Source of the DNA: Crenarchaeota archaeon 13_1_40CM_3_52_17
GTDB lineage: Archaea > Thermoproteota > Bathyarchaeia > 40CM-2-53-6
NCBI GenBank assembly: GCA_001918745.1
Contig: MNGN01000060.1
Location: 1 to 42,919, forward strand
Direction: 5' to 3'
DNA length: 42,919 nucleotides
In this document: piece after piece, positions 16,156-24,276 of the stretch
Position numbering within the stretch: the stretch's first letter is position 1
Layout of the letters: every line of letters begins with the position of its first letter
Position numbers and translations under genes: made by a program
The notes under the pieces: model-generated
Seen by the model: the letters and a program-made list of their open reading frames with translations, nothing else
Database searches by the model: none
What the model was told of the DNA's origin: nothing

Positions 16156-17052
16156 ATGTTGAACAAAATACGACTCATTATTTTGAGCGCAATAATGATC
16201 ACTGTGGTTCTTGCATCACCAGTGGTAACTGTCAGAGCAGATGGAAACCTGCTGCGAGGCTTCGACGTGCCTGCCCTCACACCATTCGGTCAGAATGTCC
16301 TCCCATCGCTCTACTGGCCTATCGGGGTCGCGTTTGATGGCCACAACCTCTGGTATTCCGAACCTTGCAGCTGCACCTCCGATATCTTCCTCACCTCAAC
16401 CACCGGGACGCTTCTCAACACACTCCATGAGGTCAACCAGGCTGGCGGGCTCGCTTGGGACGGAAGCCATCTCTGGGTCGGCAGCTTCCTGAAGAACCCC
16501 TTCACGTGCACGACAGGAAGCACACAATGCGCCTTCCTCACGGAAGTAGATGTCTCCACTGGTAATCCAATAAAGGTCGTGGACCTATCGAACATCTTCG
16601 CGGCGGACCAGGAATGCGGCCTCATAAGCGGCCTAGAGTTTGACGCGGCCAGCGGAGCTCTCTGGGTCACTCCCAACGTGGGCTGCCTGAACGGGATCGT
16701 GCCTGATGCTTGCGCGGTAGGATTCCTCTACAATGTCGACACGTCTGGAAACCTGATTCGTAGGGTCCCACTGAACCTAGGCGCTTTCGGCGCGGCCAAA
16801 GTGGGAAGCAACCTCTACATCTCATCCTGCCAGACAACAGGTTTCGCCCAGCGCCCAATCTACAAGCTCGCCCTTGACGGAACGCCGATATCCGCCTTCA
16901 GCACTGTCAGTGTAAGCGGGAACAGGGAAAGCGCTGAGGACATATCCTTCGATCCCGTGACTTTCGCCCCCAACTGCGCTCTCTGGGTCAACCAGCTGTA
17001 CGGCTTCCCATTCGACGCCTCGCTCGCCGCCTACCAGATACCCTGCCCGTAA
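16156..17052 (+). CDS. exported beta-propeller (NHL/Vgb-like) protein
   Basis: A 298-aa protein with a signal peptide (about residues 1-29, KIRLIILSAIMITVVLAS core) and repeated propeller blades: GVAFDGHNLWYSE, GLAWDGSHLWVGS, GLEFDAASGALWVTP and AAKVGSNLYISS. This [FL]-D-G-x-x-L-W pattern is that of Vgb/streptogramin-lyase-like propellers. Several Cys occur in pairs (CSC, CTTGSTQC), possibly disulfides outside the cell. Ligand or enzymatic role unknown. The gene sits alone between two copies of the preceding gene's 3' end. Confidence 0.8.
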   Translation: MLNKIRLIILSAIMITVVLASPVVTVRADGNLLRGFDVPALTPFGQNVLPSLYWPIGVAFDGHNLWYSEPCSCTSDIFLTSTTGTLLNTLHEVNQAGGLAWDGSHLWVGSFLKNPFTCTTGSTQCAFLTEVDVSTGNPIKVVDLSNIFAADQECGLISGLEFDAASGALWVTPNVGCLNGIVPDACAVGFLYNVDTSGNLIRRVPLNLGAFGAAKVGSNLYISSCQTTGFAQRPIYKLALDGTPISAFSTVSVSGNRESAEDISFDPVTFAPNCALWVNQLYGFPFDASLAAYQIPCP

Positions 17053-17082
17053 AGCAGTATCCACGACATCGTCAATCACCCC

Positions 17083-17092
17083 TTTTTTGTTT
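17083..17092 (+). terminator. T-tract terminator after the beta-propeller gene
   Basis: TTTTTTGTTT occurs 31 nt downstream of the stop codon, directly after a CCCC, without a stable hairpin; archaeal transcription can stop at such T-tracts. Confidence 0.5.
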
Positions 17093-17137
17093 GCTCTCGC
17101 ACAATGCCGGCTTTGACCTGGAAAAAGAGCCCTCGCC

Positions 17138-17169
17138 GTCGAGCAAGAATTCAGAGATTCCCTATAGAA
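17138..17169 (+). pseudogene. remnant: 3' tail of a nucleotidyltransferase gene (repeat copy 2)
   Basis: In frame it reads VEQEFRDSL-stop, matching AEQKFRDSL-stop at the end of the intact gene. The homology may extend a few codons further as ALA. There is no gene body upstream, so this is an orphan gene end, most likely left by duplication or insertion. Confidence 0.75.
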
Positions 17170-17218
17170 GCAACGAAAAGCTCGCTCCGCACTAGGCTGG
17201 CTGTCGAGAACTTCTAGG

Positions 17219-18370
17219 TCAGTCTCGCTGAGCCTCGTGATGAGAGTCTTCGGATAGCTCAATGTGGTGGTTTCCGTCGGAGTTTTCGTGGTCCTTCATC
17301 TCATCTTCGTGTACCGAGTGATCATGATCCGCCGGGTGGATGAAGAATTCCTTCATTGTCGAGGCGCCTTTGTCGTTGCTGGTCAGGGGTCGAAGGTGCC
17401 AGTTCGCTTCGACGGTTCTCAAGAATGAGTAGTGGCTGTACTGGTTGGAGGAGCTGAAGCCGGTCTTGGCTACGGAGCCGGCCCATATGGCGTAGACGTA
17501 ATCGCTGGGAAAGGCCGTGTTGCCTTCGTCAAAAGCGATGAACAGTGCTGCTTTATGGTCAGTGAAGAGTTTGCTGTCGAGTATTTTCGGGACTATTTGC
17601 GAGAGGTAGCTGTCGCCGGTGGAGATGGGGCAGTCGTGCATATCATTGCAGAGGTTCGGTGTCAGCCACATGAAATTGGATGATCCAGCGGGTGATTCTA
17701 AGTCTGCGAGAAACTGATCATCAGGGGCAGCGTTGGTGGAGTTGGCTGGGACAATTCTTGAGCATCTTTCTGTGCTATTGACGATGTCGCCGAAGTAGAC
17801 GAATGGGTTGTGCCGGGCAGCGTACTGTGTTGTTCCATTATCTCCTAGGAAACAGTTGCCTGGGGAGCAGTTTGTTCCACAGTTTGTGGGGTAGCCTTCC
17901 ATGTACGCCTTCCACGTCAAGTCTCTAGACTCCAGTCGATCAACAAGGTTGGGAGCGTCGCCAGCATTGCAACTTGCACCCGGGTTGCAGTCGGACTGGC
18001 TCCAGGTCGCGAATTCTTGGCCTGAGACTAGTGCTAGATAGTTTGGAAGGCTTGGATGGTCTAGTGCGGTATAGTTTGTTGCTAGGGACCAGGCAGATGC
18101 TAGCTTGTTCATGAATGGGGCGGATGGACTGCCGATGATGTCGCCGAGACCGTGGTTCTCCATGAGTATGGTTACGATGTAGTTGAAGGAGTGGTTCATC
18201 GAGTCTGACTGGTGAGCAGCATTCATCGGAGCGCCTAGGGTAAGAGATACGAACAGGAGAGCTAAGAGCACCATACAACCTACTTCCGGTGTAGTGAGAA
18301 AGGTCCGCGAGAAATGCTGCACTTGAAGGTTCCGGAAAATGATACGACCATCGCGTGCCCGCGATATCAC
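17219..18370 (-). CDS. secreted phosphoesterase (acid phosphatase / phospholipase C-like superfamily)
   Basis: A 383-aa protein with an N-terminal hydrophobic signal (about residues 30-50, MVLLALLFVSLTLGAP). Family blocks follow: YIVTILMENHGLGDIIG (the nucleophile region), ALDHPSLPNYLALVSG, LTWKAYMEGYP and FIAFDEGN with the metal-binding Asp-Glu. The C-terminus is His/Asp/Glu-rich (HPADHDHSVHEDEMKDHENS), possibly metal-binding. It should hydrolyse phosphomonoesters or phospholipids outside the cell. Start M1 (18370) is kept; the in-frame Met at the signal core (residue 33) is an alternative. Confidence 0.85.
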   Translation of the reverse strand: MISRARDGRIIFRNLQVQHFSRTFLTTPEVGCMVLLALLFVSLTLGAPMNAAHQSDSMNHSFNYIVTILMENHGLGDIIGSPSAPFMNKLASAWSLATNYTALDHPSLPNYLALVSGQEFATWSQSDCNPGASCNAGDAPNLVDRLESRDLTWKAYMEGYPTNCGTNCSPGNCFLGDNGTTQYAARHNPFVYFGDIVNSTERCSRIVPANSTNAAPDDQFLADLESPAGSSNFMWLTPNLCNDMHDCPISTGDSYLSQIVPKILDSKLFTDHKAALFIAFDEGNTAFPSDYVYAIWAGSVAKTGFSSSNQYSHYSFLRTVEANWHLRPLTSNDKGASTMKEFFIHPADHDHSVHEDEMKDHENSDGNHHIELSEDSHHEAQRD

Positions 18371-18967: not shown

Positions 18968-19183
18968 TTGACTCCAAGGGAGAGAGAACTCATGACTGGG
19001 ATGGGCAATTGTTATGCTTCGTGCCACGAGGACTTTGAACATACCGTAGAGATGGTTGGTGATGCTCGGGGTTTATCGATCGATCAGGTGAAGAGTATGC
19101 TCGAGGATATTCGTGGGAAGTATGGCAAGGATCTTGATTATCAGAAGCTTCGTGGCAGGTTGCCAAAGGATTTTCCATTGTAA
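18968..19183 (+). CDS. small conserved hypothetical protein of the zinc-finger/HO-like cluster
   Basis: A 71-aa product from TTG 18968 (ATG 18992 alternative). It reads GNCYASCHEDFEHTVEMV, then an acidic-helical region and a Lys-rich end (GKDLDYQKLRGRLPKDF). The CxxxCH pattern could bind a metal with its partners. It lies 14 nt upstream of the next gene and probably forms one operon with it and the Ta0938-type gene. Confidence 0.6.
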   Translation: MTPRERELMTGMGNCYASCHEDFEHTVEMVGDARGLSIDQVKSMLEDIRGKYGKDLDYQKLRGRLPKDFPL

Positions 19184-19197
19184 AAGGTCGAGAGTAA

Positions 19198-20100
19198 TTG
19201 ACGAAGTGTCCGTGTTGTGGTGCAGGTTTTCAGAAGCGTGATGATTGGGATGATCTTGCTGGTCATTTTGTTGCTGAGGCGGGGCGCAGTGATGCGGGGC
19301 ATGTTATGTGGTTGAACCGGAACATCACCAAGAATAAGTCTGACCGGAAGGCTCTTTCGAAATTATTGGCGGAATTCTTCAGCTTAGGAAATAGTAGCTT
19401 GGAATCGTGGGTTAAGCAGCGTTTTATCGAGAAGTTCTATGGGTCTAGTCCGCATCCTTTCGTTCTCGCGTTGCAGCATCCTAGCCGGGCGGTGTTGTTG
19501 GGGTATGTTGTTGAGCATCAGCATTTCCTCCGTCAGTGGGTCCGATCGTGCAGCTACATTATGGCCCGGACAGACGAGATGGACGTGGTCTTGTATGAGC
19601 TGGATAATATCAACACGGAATACGGTGGCGTAGGGACCGGTCAGCCGAGTCACTATGAGCTTTTGTTGAGGATGGGCGAGAGCCTTGGCCTAGATCGGAA
19701 GAAAGTGTTTCGGATGGCGCCGTTGGAGGATACGAGAGAGGCAATACGGGTGTGGGATAGTATCTGTCGGGATGATCACTGGGTTGAGGGGATGGCGGCG
19801 ATGCATGGCTTGGAGTTGATCGCGAACCGGAAGCTAAAGGGTGAGGGCGCGAGTATCGGCTATTTTGATCCTGTGATTCTGAAAAATAAGGAGATATCGG
19901 ATCAGGCGAAGGCGTTCTTGCGGGAGGGGTATGAGGCGGATGTGGGCCATTCTGAACAAGGCCTTGGGCTAGTCGAGAAGTACTCTAAGTTGTATGGGAA
20001 TGTGGATGATGTGCAGTCGACGTTTCTTCGGTCGATTGACTATTTTGACCGGTATTTGATGGCCCGTTTGGAGAGGAGTAGACAGTTTGAAAGTAGCTGA
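19198..20100 (+). CDS. zinc finger fused to a haem-oxygenase-like (TenA/CADD-type) iron protein
   Basis: A 300-aa product from TTG 19198 with GGTCGAG upstream. Residues 4-36 form a C2H2-like finger (CPCCGAGF...HFVAEAGRSDAGH). The rest is an all-helical haem-oxygenase-like fold: VEHQHFLRQWVRS, YELDNINTEYG, HYELLLRMGESLGL, HWVEGMAAMHGLELIANR and a GYEADVGHSEQGLGLV helix. The D-x2-H-S-E motif and the earlier Glu/His residues match metal ligands of haem-oxygenase-like di-iron proteins. Such proteins oxidise small amines or fatty acids. Substrate unknown. Its last 14 nt overlap the next gene. Confidence 0.72.
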   Translation: MTKCPCCGAGFQKRDDWDDLAGHFVAEAGRSDAGHVMWLNRNITKNKSDRKALSKLLAEFFSLGNSSLESWVKQRFIEKFYGSSPHPFVLALQHPSRAVLLGYVVEHQHFLRQWVRSCSYIMARTDEMDVVLYELDNINTEYGGVGTGQPSHYELLLRMGESLGLDRKKVFRMAPLEDTREAIRVWDSICRDDHWVEGMAAMHGLELIANRKLKGEGASIGYFDPVILKNKEISDQAKAFLREGYEADVGHSEQGLGLVEKYSKLYGNVDDVQSTFLRSIDYFDRYLMARLERSRQFESS

Positions 20101-20380
20101 GAAAGGCTGCGCGATCTGCCAGGCAACATGGGGCGATTACTGGGAGGAGATCGAAGGACAACGCATGTTCTTCTGCTGCGACATCTGCGCTATCGAATTC
20201 AAGAACATGATCAACGAGGTGAAGAAACGAACGGGATGGAAAACGATTGATGAGATCAAGATGACAGGAAACTACCGAGGACGGGAGTGCCTGGCCTTGT
20301 ACCAGGGCAAGAAGTACCCTTTCAACATCAGATTTGACTCAAAGGGCGGGATATCCCTATTCAGCGAATTGGACATTTGA
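20087..20380 (+). CDS. Ta0938-like zinc-binding protein
   Basis: A 97-aa product from TTG 20087. N-terminal CAICQATWGDYWEEIEGQ and FFCCDICAIEFKNMI carry two Cys pairs as in Thermoplasma Ta0938, a zinc-binding family restricted to archaea. A beta C-terminal half (YQGKKYPFNIRFDSKGG) follows. It is translationally overlapped with the haem-oxygenase-like gene, which points to one complex or a metal-delivery role. Function unproven in any organism I know of. Confidence 0.75.
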   Translation: MKVAEKGCAICQATWGDYWEEIEGQRMFFCCDICAIEFKNMINEVKKRTGWKTIDEIKMTGNYRGRECLALYQGKKYPFNIRFDSKGGISLFSELDI

Positions 20381-20437: not shown

Positions 20438-20854
20438 ACGGCGAAGCGAGCTAGGGAGGATGCGCAATGGTGGCTCGCAGCCTCTATCGACGATTATGAG
20501 TCAGCCCAGTTGCTCTTTAAAGGAGGAAAGTACAGCAAGACAGTTCACGTTCTCCACAACGCGACAGAGAAGGCTCTGAAAGCCGCGATCTTGGACGAGA
20601 GAAAGAGGCCTCCTTACGGGGCTGGCGGCCACAACCTCGGCCGTCTCTACGAGATGGTTCAGTCGAGGCTCAAACTATCCGCGAGATTGGTGAGGACGAT
20701 AGACGATTTATCGCCTCTATACTTACCATCAGAATATCCGGACGCGGCACTAGGGGTTCCTGGGACACTGTTCAAAAAGGAGCAAGCCCAAAGATACCTT
20801 AGAGAAGTAGGCGAGCTGTTACAATGGCTAAAGAAGAAGATGCCCAGAGAATAG
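20438..20854 (+). CDS. HEPN-domain protein (toxin of a HEPN-MNT module), apparent ACG start
   Basis: The 138-aa HEPN protein begins with REDAQWWLAASIDDYESAQ, then GGKYSKTVHVLHNATEKALKA, the classic HEPN helix pair. The first helix is encoded upstream of the first normal start (TTG 20510). In that frame a TAG sits at 20432 and no ATG/GTG/TTG follows. ACG 20438 is preceded at 8 nt by a strong GGAGG (20425-20429), so I take ACG as start; an N-terminally truncated protein from TTG 20510 is the alternative. An R-x7-H (RPPYGAGGH) replaces the usual R-x4-6-H. It overlaps the MNT gene by 31 nt. Confidence 0.75.
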   Translation, partial: TAKRAREDAQWWLAASIDDYESAQLLFKGGKYSKTVHVLHNATEKALKAAILDERKRPPYGAGGHNLGRLYEMVQSRLKLSARLVRTIDDLSPLYLPSEYPDAALGVPGTLFKKEQAQRYLREVGELLQWLKKKMPRE

Positions 20855-21168
20855 CCAAGAACTACGTCAGGAGACTCGCCCGAGACATCACCGTTCGACA
20901 GGCAATATTGACGGGCTCACGGGCAACCGGCTCGTACCTGGAAGATAGCGATGTGGATCTGATAATCGTCTCAGACGATTTCTCCAAGATGCAACTCCCA
21001 GAGAGGCTCAGGTATCTCCAAAAGCAGTGGAAGAGCAAGATCCCTCTGGAAGCGTTCGGATACACCGTCGACGAGTTCGCAACGTTAAGGCGGAAAAGCA
21101 CCTACGTCAAGGAAGCTGTACGGACGGGGATCGTGCTGGTAGACAGGCGAACGCCGACCACGTCCTAG
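20824..21168 (+). CDS. MNT-domain nucleotidyltransferase (antitoxin of HEPN-MNT)
   Basis: A 114-aa minimal nucleotidyltransferase with ILTGSRATGSYLEDSDVDLIIV, the G-S-x10-D-x-D active-site motif, near residues 28-49. In HEPN-MNT modules the MNT partner neutralises the HEPN RNase, in some cases by AMPylating it. The overlap with the HEPN gene supports a co-expressed pair. ATG 20824 is the likely start. Confidence 0.85.
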   Translation: MAKEEDAQRIAKNYVRRLARDITVRQAILTGSRATGSYLEDSDVDLIIVSDDFSKMQLPERLRYLQKQWKSKIPLEAFGYTVDEFATLRRKSTYVKEAVRTGIVLVDRRTPTTS

Positions 21169-23714: not shown

Positions 23715-24092
23715 CTAGTGCCCGATGAAGATCGCGTCGGGTATTTGTTTGAAATCGGGGTCTCCTGTTACAACTTTGGCCCTTCGACTCCTTGCAGTCG
23801 ATAGTATCAAGCTGTCCGCGAGGCTTGTTTTCAGGCTCTGCTTCAGTCGAGCCGCTTCGATCCCTATGCCTTCATCGACGGGTATCAGAAAGCATCTTTT
23901 CTTCAATGTTTCCCGCTTCTCCTCAGCTTTCTTCTCGCCGTAGTGACCGAGGACCCAGAAGTATGTCTCAGTCAGGTTAATCGTCGACGCCAGAGCCATC
24001 TCGGACCCTTCGATGAACTCCGCAGCCTTCATGGAGCTTGGGCCACCCCTCCAGTATTCTATCCACGACCAGGAGTCAATCAAAACGGTCAT
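23715..24092 (-). CDS. VapC-type PIN-domain toxin
   Basis: A 125-aa PIN protein with MTVLIDSWSWIEYWRGG (Asp6), INLTETYFWV (Glu), SLADSLILSTARSRRAKVVTGDPDF (two Asp), i.e. all four acidic residues of the RNase site. ATG start; the first 17 nt overlap the antitoxin. Sits with its antitoxin between the rusA-like gene and a rusA 3'-tail remnant. Confidence 0.88.
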   Translation of the reverse strand: MTVLIDSWSWIEYWRGGPSSMKAAEFIEGSEMALASTINLTETYFWVLGHYGEKKAEEKRETLKKRCFLIPVDEGIGIEAARLKQSLKTSLADSLILSTARSRRAKVVTGDPDFKQIPDAIFIGH

Positions 24093-24276
24093 GTTTCTCT
24101 CGAACGAACGGCTTCAATTTCGGCAGGCTGCCTCGTTCCGATCTTCTCAAGGTCTTGCTCTCCCTGAGAACCTCCCGCAGAGCATCTGAGTAGCTCTTTA
24201 GAGCCTTCTCGCGCTTCAGCTGTTCAAGCACTTTCATTATGTCCTCGTCTACCTGGATCGTGGTCTTAGCCGTCAA
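24076..24276 (-). CDS. VapB-type antitoxin
   Basis: A 66-aa product: TTIQVDEDIMKVLEQLKREKALKSYSDALREVLRE forms a ribbon-helix-helix or similar DNA-binding unit, and the basic/acidic tail (KLKPFVREKHDRFD) would wrap the toxin. It precedes and overlaps the PIN gene. An inverted-repeat operator lies 25-50 nt upstream. Confidence 0.8.
   Translation of the reverse strand: MTAKTTIQVDEDIMKVLEQLKREKALKSYSDALREVLRESKTLRRSERGSLPKLKPFVREKHDRFD

Follow-up and report, generated by a model that had tools for sequence, protein, structure and literature searches.

The window analysed here, a stretch of 42,919 nucleotides from Crenarchaeota archaeon 13_1_40CM_3_52_17 (contig MNGN01000060.1) whose closest named relatives are soil Bathyarchaeota MAGs, carries three consecutive genes on the forward strand: ORF1 (18968..19183, 71 aa), ORF2 (19198..20100, 300 aa), and ORF3 (20087..20380, 97 aa), all of which start with TTG. 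Coordinates and lengths agree exactly with the first-pass annotation, which had described the genes as tightly overlapping. This description holds for ORF2 and ORF3, which share 14 nt, but not for ORF1 and ORF2, which lie 14 nt apart. The overlap is identical in five relatives. Overlaps of 14 nt are the form seen in Bathyarchaeia, and most of those in Sulfolobales measure 4 nt; a purine-rich AGAGGAG precedes the TTG of ORF3. Because of this tight spacing, the three genes are probably co-transcribed as one unit and ORF2 and ORF3 are probably translationally coupled; among relatives, the promoter region shows no conservation. For all three genes, comparison with the three nearest counterparts gave dN values of 0.04-0.11 and dS values of 0.6-2.2, and most differences among relatives affect third codon positions (ORF1 versus genome G010: 9, 5, and 29 changes at the first, second, and third position, dN 0.095, dS 1.33). 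With dN far below dS, ORF1, ORF2, and ORF3 are real translated genes under strong purifying selection. No relatives of the operon genes were found among the plasmids and viral contigs searched, so the operon is not a mobile-element gene there, and PADLOC returned no defence match for any of the three.

ORF2 is a modular protein. Its N-terminal finger region (residues 1-62, 19198..19383, forward strand) matches PF16293 (zf-C2H2_9; 5e-18, 65.2 bits, cut-off 29), includes the invariant H35-x-MWLNR, and contains the C2H2-type finger residues C4, C7, H23, and H35, which are invariant in the family. The remainder has a haem-oxygenase/TenA fold and is recognized by PF03070 (TENA_THI-4; 6e-32, 111.5 bits, cut-off 22) and PF14518 (Haem_oxygenas_2; 2e-11, 44.8 bits, cut-off 28.9), which bears out the fusion of a finger to a haem-oxygenase-like domain proposed in the first-pass annotation. 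Both domains that define the SSO2700/Ta0939-type family (PF16293 and TENA/THI-4) thus score above their cut-offs, and the haem-oxygenase fold of the HDO superfamily is evident from the AF2 model (pLDDT 92.7), from Foldseek, and from PF14518. The top Foldseek match and nearest solved structure is 4LQX (SSO2700; about 49% identity), which aligns over the whole length including the finger (TM 0.93), followed by CADD (TM by target 0.75-0.77), PqqC, TenA, BesC, and UndA. SSO2700 shares with ORF2 the TENA/THI-4 and PF16293 finger family and full-length similarity; Ta0939 is linked to ORF2 by its PQQC mark and by a locus tag consecutive to that of Ta0938 in Thermoplasma. In profile searches ORF2 matched CADD (1.1e-5) and a second 4-aminobenzoate synthase of the PDB, 9pj4 (1.5e-4).

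The first-pass annotation had taken a D-x2-H-S-E motif of ORF2 as a hint at di-iron oxidase chemistry. D248-x2-H251 is indeed conserved, but the following S-E is not. Together with E141 and H152 of core helix 1 (19618..19653) and E206 of core helix 2 (19813..19815), D248 and H251 occupy five of the six HDO ligand positions and are invariant in 31 of 31 ORF2 sequences. The sixth position, at which HDOs have the first histidine of core helix 3, is a glycine (G244) in all 31 (E243-G244-Y-E-A-D248-V-G-H251, 19924..19950, with E243 likewise invariant). The standard 3H/3C site, that is, the E-H-E-H-(D/E)-H set of dimetal HDOs, is therefore not present in ORF2: the ligands whose absence had been named as counter-evidence to di-iron chemistry are there, five of them without exception, in an altered set. 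In an alignment with CADD (1RCW/8VA9), E141, H152, E206, D248, and H251 correspond to E81, H88, E142, D178, and H181, metal ligands of CADD, and G244 aligns with H174, the numbering having been counted from the alignments. In a distant homologue from the Sulfolobales genome G445, this helix aligns without gaps and shows the standard H-x3-D-x2-H, which secures the register and identifies G244 as a replacement. This homologue (G445:C1:385483-386031) scores above the PF14518 cut-off, lacks the finger, and represents a standard-motif HDO paralogue in Sulfolobales. A new invariant feature of ORF2 is the EHxH motif E106-H107-x-H109 (19513..19524), whose residues, all conserved in 31 of 31 sequences as is H203, are candidate replacement ligands or substrate contacts.

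In a survey of the 150 largest HDO groups published in 2024, the full ligand set was predicted in about 85%, a minority gave no firm predictions or had Asn in the last three positions, and a single group showed a different firm motif, the FlcD type, in which E-H-E-H-V-R replaces E-H-E-H-(D/E)-H and a mononuclear Fe is bound at site 1 (PMC11363339). Like ORF2, FlcD is a natural HDO variant with changed helix-3 ligands, but FlcD retains the first His and lacks the Asp and the last His, and ORF2 shows the reverse. The motif E-H-E-G-D-H is absent from the ligand sets described in PMC11363339 and PMC13108848; the latter, a review of 2026, treats the members as bacterial and does not mention archaea. 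UndA, BesC, and SznF, which are dimetal HDOs, have the fold and most ligands in common with ORF2, yet differ from it by the full E-H-E-H-D/E-H set and by their place in bacterial natural-product pathways.

The same residues bear on the question whether ORF2 is a metalloenzyme at all. The missing ligand in every ORF2 leaves the metal and the nuclearity putative, and PqqC and TenA, which match the fold of ORF2, have it without a metal (for PqqC, see PMC11363339). The top Pfam model of ORF2 is TENA_THI-4/PQQC. ORF2 could thus be a metal-free enzyme of the TenA/PqqC type, its conserved Glu, Asp, and His residues serving acid-base chemistry and its finger being purely structural. We regard this as unlikely, although it is the most probable of the alternatives, as CADD ranks above PqqC in the sequence profiles and five HDO ligands stand invariant at the HDO positions. 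The catalytic nucleophile of TenA thiaminase II is a Cys. It is absent from ORF2, whose alignment has invariant Cys residues in the finger alone.

CADD and NePabS, p-aminobenzoate synthases with Fe/Mn or Fe/Fe sites, match ORF2 in fold and in the E, H, E, D, and H ligands, and CADD-type 4-aminobenzoate synthases are its nearest solved relatives outside its own family. An ORF2 of CADD-like function would supply p-aminobenzoate to archaeal pterin cofactors, and a possible folate link is offered by two ThyX-family (PF02511) genes located directly upstream of the operon in genomes G012 and G003. Nevertheless, we consider this function very improbable: ThyX adjoins the operon nowhere besides these two genomes, ORF2 has Gly in place of the first helix-3 His, and it reaches only 35.4 bits with the NCBIfam CADD model TIGR04305 (cut-off 200). 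Moreover, K212, which aligns with the sacrificial Lys152 of CADD, is variable in the ORF2 family (K, R, N, D, S, T, G), and ORF2 differs from CADD and NePabS by the additional finger and the partner genes.

ORF3 was correctly assigned to the Ta0938 family in the first-pass annotation (PF11494, 9e-38), with 2FQH, the NMR structure of Ta0938, as its closest solved structure. Its five Cys residues (C8, C11, C30, C31, C34) are invariant across 16 aligned sequences, and it lacks the N-terminal extension of roughly 10 residues found in the Sulfolobales forms. Weak matches to TRASH and YHS domains (0.006-0.01), which fall short of the cut-off, together with the five Cys suggest that ORF3 binds a metal. 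Ta0938-like proteins also occur without ORF2 beside them, and two such paralogues are adjoined by ABM (PF03992) monooxygenase-like genes (L051 1083-1376 and L068 812-1114, in genomes G175 and G351). ORF1 had been called a Cys-His small protein; C15-x3-C19 is its only invariant Cys/His feature, and the next His is G or K in relatives. No Pfam family was found for ORF1. Its AF2 model (pLDDT 95.7) comprises four helices, the first of which ends in C15-x3-C19, the nearest PDB folds are helix-turn-helix domains without significance (E 0.24 and above), and a profile search against the PDB gave only short, scattered matches of repeat type. These features could be read as those of a sensor or regulator, in which the finger of ORF2 and ORF1 would bind nucleic acid, the haem-oxygenase fold would sense a metal, haem, or a small molecule, and ORF3 would act as a TRASH-like metal sensor; the ABM proteins next to Ta0938 paralogues would also fit. 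We judge a regulatory role to be rather improbable, since the invariance of the cavity-type residues of ORF2 among distant lineages is what a catalyst would show, the fold matches of ORF1 are not significant, and a conserved adjacent target gene was not found.

ORF2 was detected in 13 genomes of the family to which the window belongs, as an intact copy in 17 of 147 Sulfolobales genomes (the order of G249), in one thaumarchaeote MAG, SubAcS15-15 (an acid-soil source, read from the isolate name), and in the Caldivirga-like genome G144 and genome G236. The co-occurrence proposed as a check in the first-pass annotation is strict for the core pair: ORF3 lies directly downstream of ORF2 in 33 of 33 carriers, comprising aerobic soil Bathyarchaeia, the thaumarchaeote, Sulfolobales, and the Caldivirga-like genome. 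It is still adjacent in G236, where only the first 109 residues of ORF2 are present (L075 7106-7829), which reflects either a decayed gene or an assembly error; in G124, ORF2 is decayed and the locus has no ORF3. Besides ORF2 and ORF3, no neighbours common to the lineages were found. ORF1 precedes ORF2 in 15 genomes of one clade, namely in SubAcS15-15, in the Sulfolobales genomes G243 and G445, and in each of the 12 Bathyarchaeia loci whose upstream sequence is available; searches of the other genomes, Sulfolobales included, did not detect it. Most Sulfolobales carriers are devoid of ORF1, which shows that it is not essential to the ORF2-ORF3 core pair. A single branch of the ORF2 tree (support 95/95) separates the operons with ORF1 from those without it, and a single gain or loss is therefore enough to explain the distribution. 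The placement of G243 ORF2 apart from its genus (AU p 0.004) suggests that the gene was transferred horizontally or duplicated long ago.

The statement that no system of this composition had been described needs qualification. The ORF2/ORF3 pair is already on record: Ta0938 and Ta0939 (PQQC), with consecutive locus tags, appear in a list, published in 2007, of proteins that Thermoplasmata have in common with Sulfolobus (PMC1852104), which extends the gene pair to a second phylum, and single structures are available, 4LQX (crystal) and 2FQH (NMR). In our literature search, Ta0938 and Ta0939 occurred only in that list and a description of function or operon was not found, nor was a paper on SSO2700 or 4LQX; the only match for TenA/THI-4 in Sulfolobus concerned SSO2089, another gene. 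Compared with SSO2700/Ta0939, the window operon occurs in soil Bathyarchaeia and has ORF1 in front, and in the literature searched neither the three-gene form nor the altered ligand set appears to have been described.

The distribution of ORF2 was also compared with that of the terminal oxidase subunit COX1, which is present in 17 of 17 intact Sulfolobales carriers and in 48 of the 147 genomes overall (hypergeometric P 6e-10, a statistic inflated by ignoring relatedness). In Bathyarchaeia, every carrier falls within the one family in which COX1 is common. This association agrees with the use of O2 by ORF2; however, it may reflect acidophilic or aerobic ancestry, with acidophily as a confounder, and many COX1-bearing relatives lack the operon. 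Independently of the operon, full-length COX1 haem-copper oxidase genes were observed in most members of the soil Bathyarchaeia family of the window, including its own genome (G000:C10:30360-31685), and in 1 of 40 sampled relatives at the order and class level outside it. They represent aerobic respiration within Bathyarchaeia, a class usually described as anaerobic.

Taken as a whole, the data somewhat favour the interpretation of ORF2 as a non-haem metal enzyme that has an altered metal site, activates O2, and is accompanied by Cys-rich partner proteins. ORF2 would be an archaeal branch of the HDO superfamily with a finger domain and would bind Fe (or Fe/Mn) in the cavity of the haem-oxygenase fold through E141, H152, E206, D248, and H251. 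Of the two metal sites in CADD, site 1 has two His ligands and site 2 has one, and in substrate-bound HDOs Fe1 is ligated by the substrate (PMC13108848). With Gly in place of the first helix-3 His, site 1 would be weakened and site 2 left intact, so that site 1 may be open for a substrate or refilled by H107, H109, or H203; alternatively, site 2 alone may be occupied, which would make ORF2 a mononuclear site-2 enzyme. ORF2 would activate O2 to oxidize a small cytosolic substrate, while ORF3 and ORF1, whose presumed partnership in the case of ORF3 derives from linkage, may supply ORF2 with metal or electrons or dock onto its finger. More tentatively, and with a probability well short of even, ORF2 may found an archaeal HDO subfamily with a new site (E-H-E-G-D-H plus the EHxH helix), the mirror image of FlcD, and form, together with its dedicated partner ORF3 and in one clade also ORF1, a multi-component oxygenase in acidophilic and aerobic archaea. 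Such an archaeal branch, with its perfectly conserved alternative ligand set, would test the minimum of ligands needed by the HDO fold, and a role would be found for an archaeal gene pair whose solved structures have long lacked a function. The HDO superfamily is growing fast, and as the three proteins are soluble and of small size and Sulfolobus is amenable to genetics, these proposals are directly testable.

Several genes in the vicinity of the operon deserve mention. ThyX, Rieske ferredoxin, amidohydrolase, and rhodanese genes adjoin it in a few genomes each and were excluded as functional evidence. The adjacent ThyX-family genes (L078 1406-2598 and the matching part of L079), of which the first is a weak match of about 152 aa and the second has 245 aa, end at most 4 nt before ORF1 and possibly encode a two-subunit ThyX. 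In G243 only, a Rieske [2Fe-2S] protein (PF00355; L076 10265-10618, reverse strand), a possible electron donor, is encoded directly upstream of ORF1, and in G364 a related gene on the opposite strand lies a short distance downstream of ORF3. Upstream of the operon, the window contains additional genes (16156-18370), including a phosphoesterase gene (PF04185, 17219-18370), that separate it from a conserved upstream block; in relatives this block lies about 1-2 kb closer to the operon. Directly downstream (20510-21168), a HEPN (PF05168) and a nucleotidyltransferase (PF01909) gene resemble a HEPN-MNT toxin-antitoxin system and are not conserved with the operon. Further downstream (23715-24276, reverse strand), a PIN-domain gene overlaps a ribbon-helix-helix gene in a VapBC-like toxin-antitoxin pair, near which more RHH-like ORFs are found.
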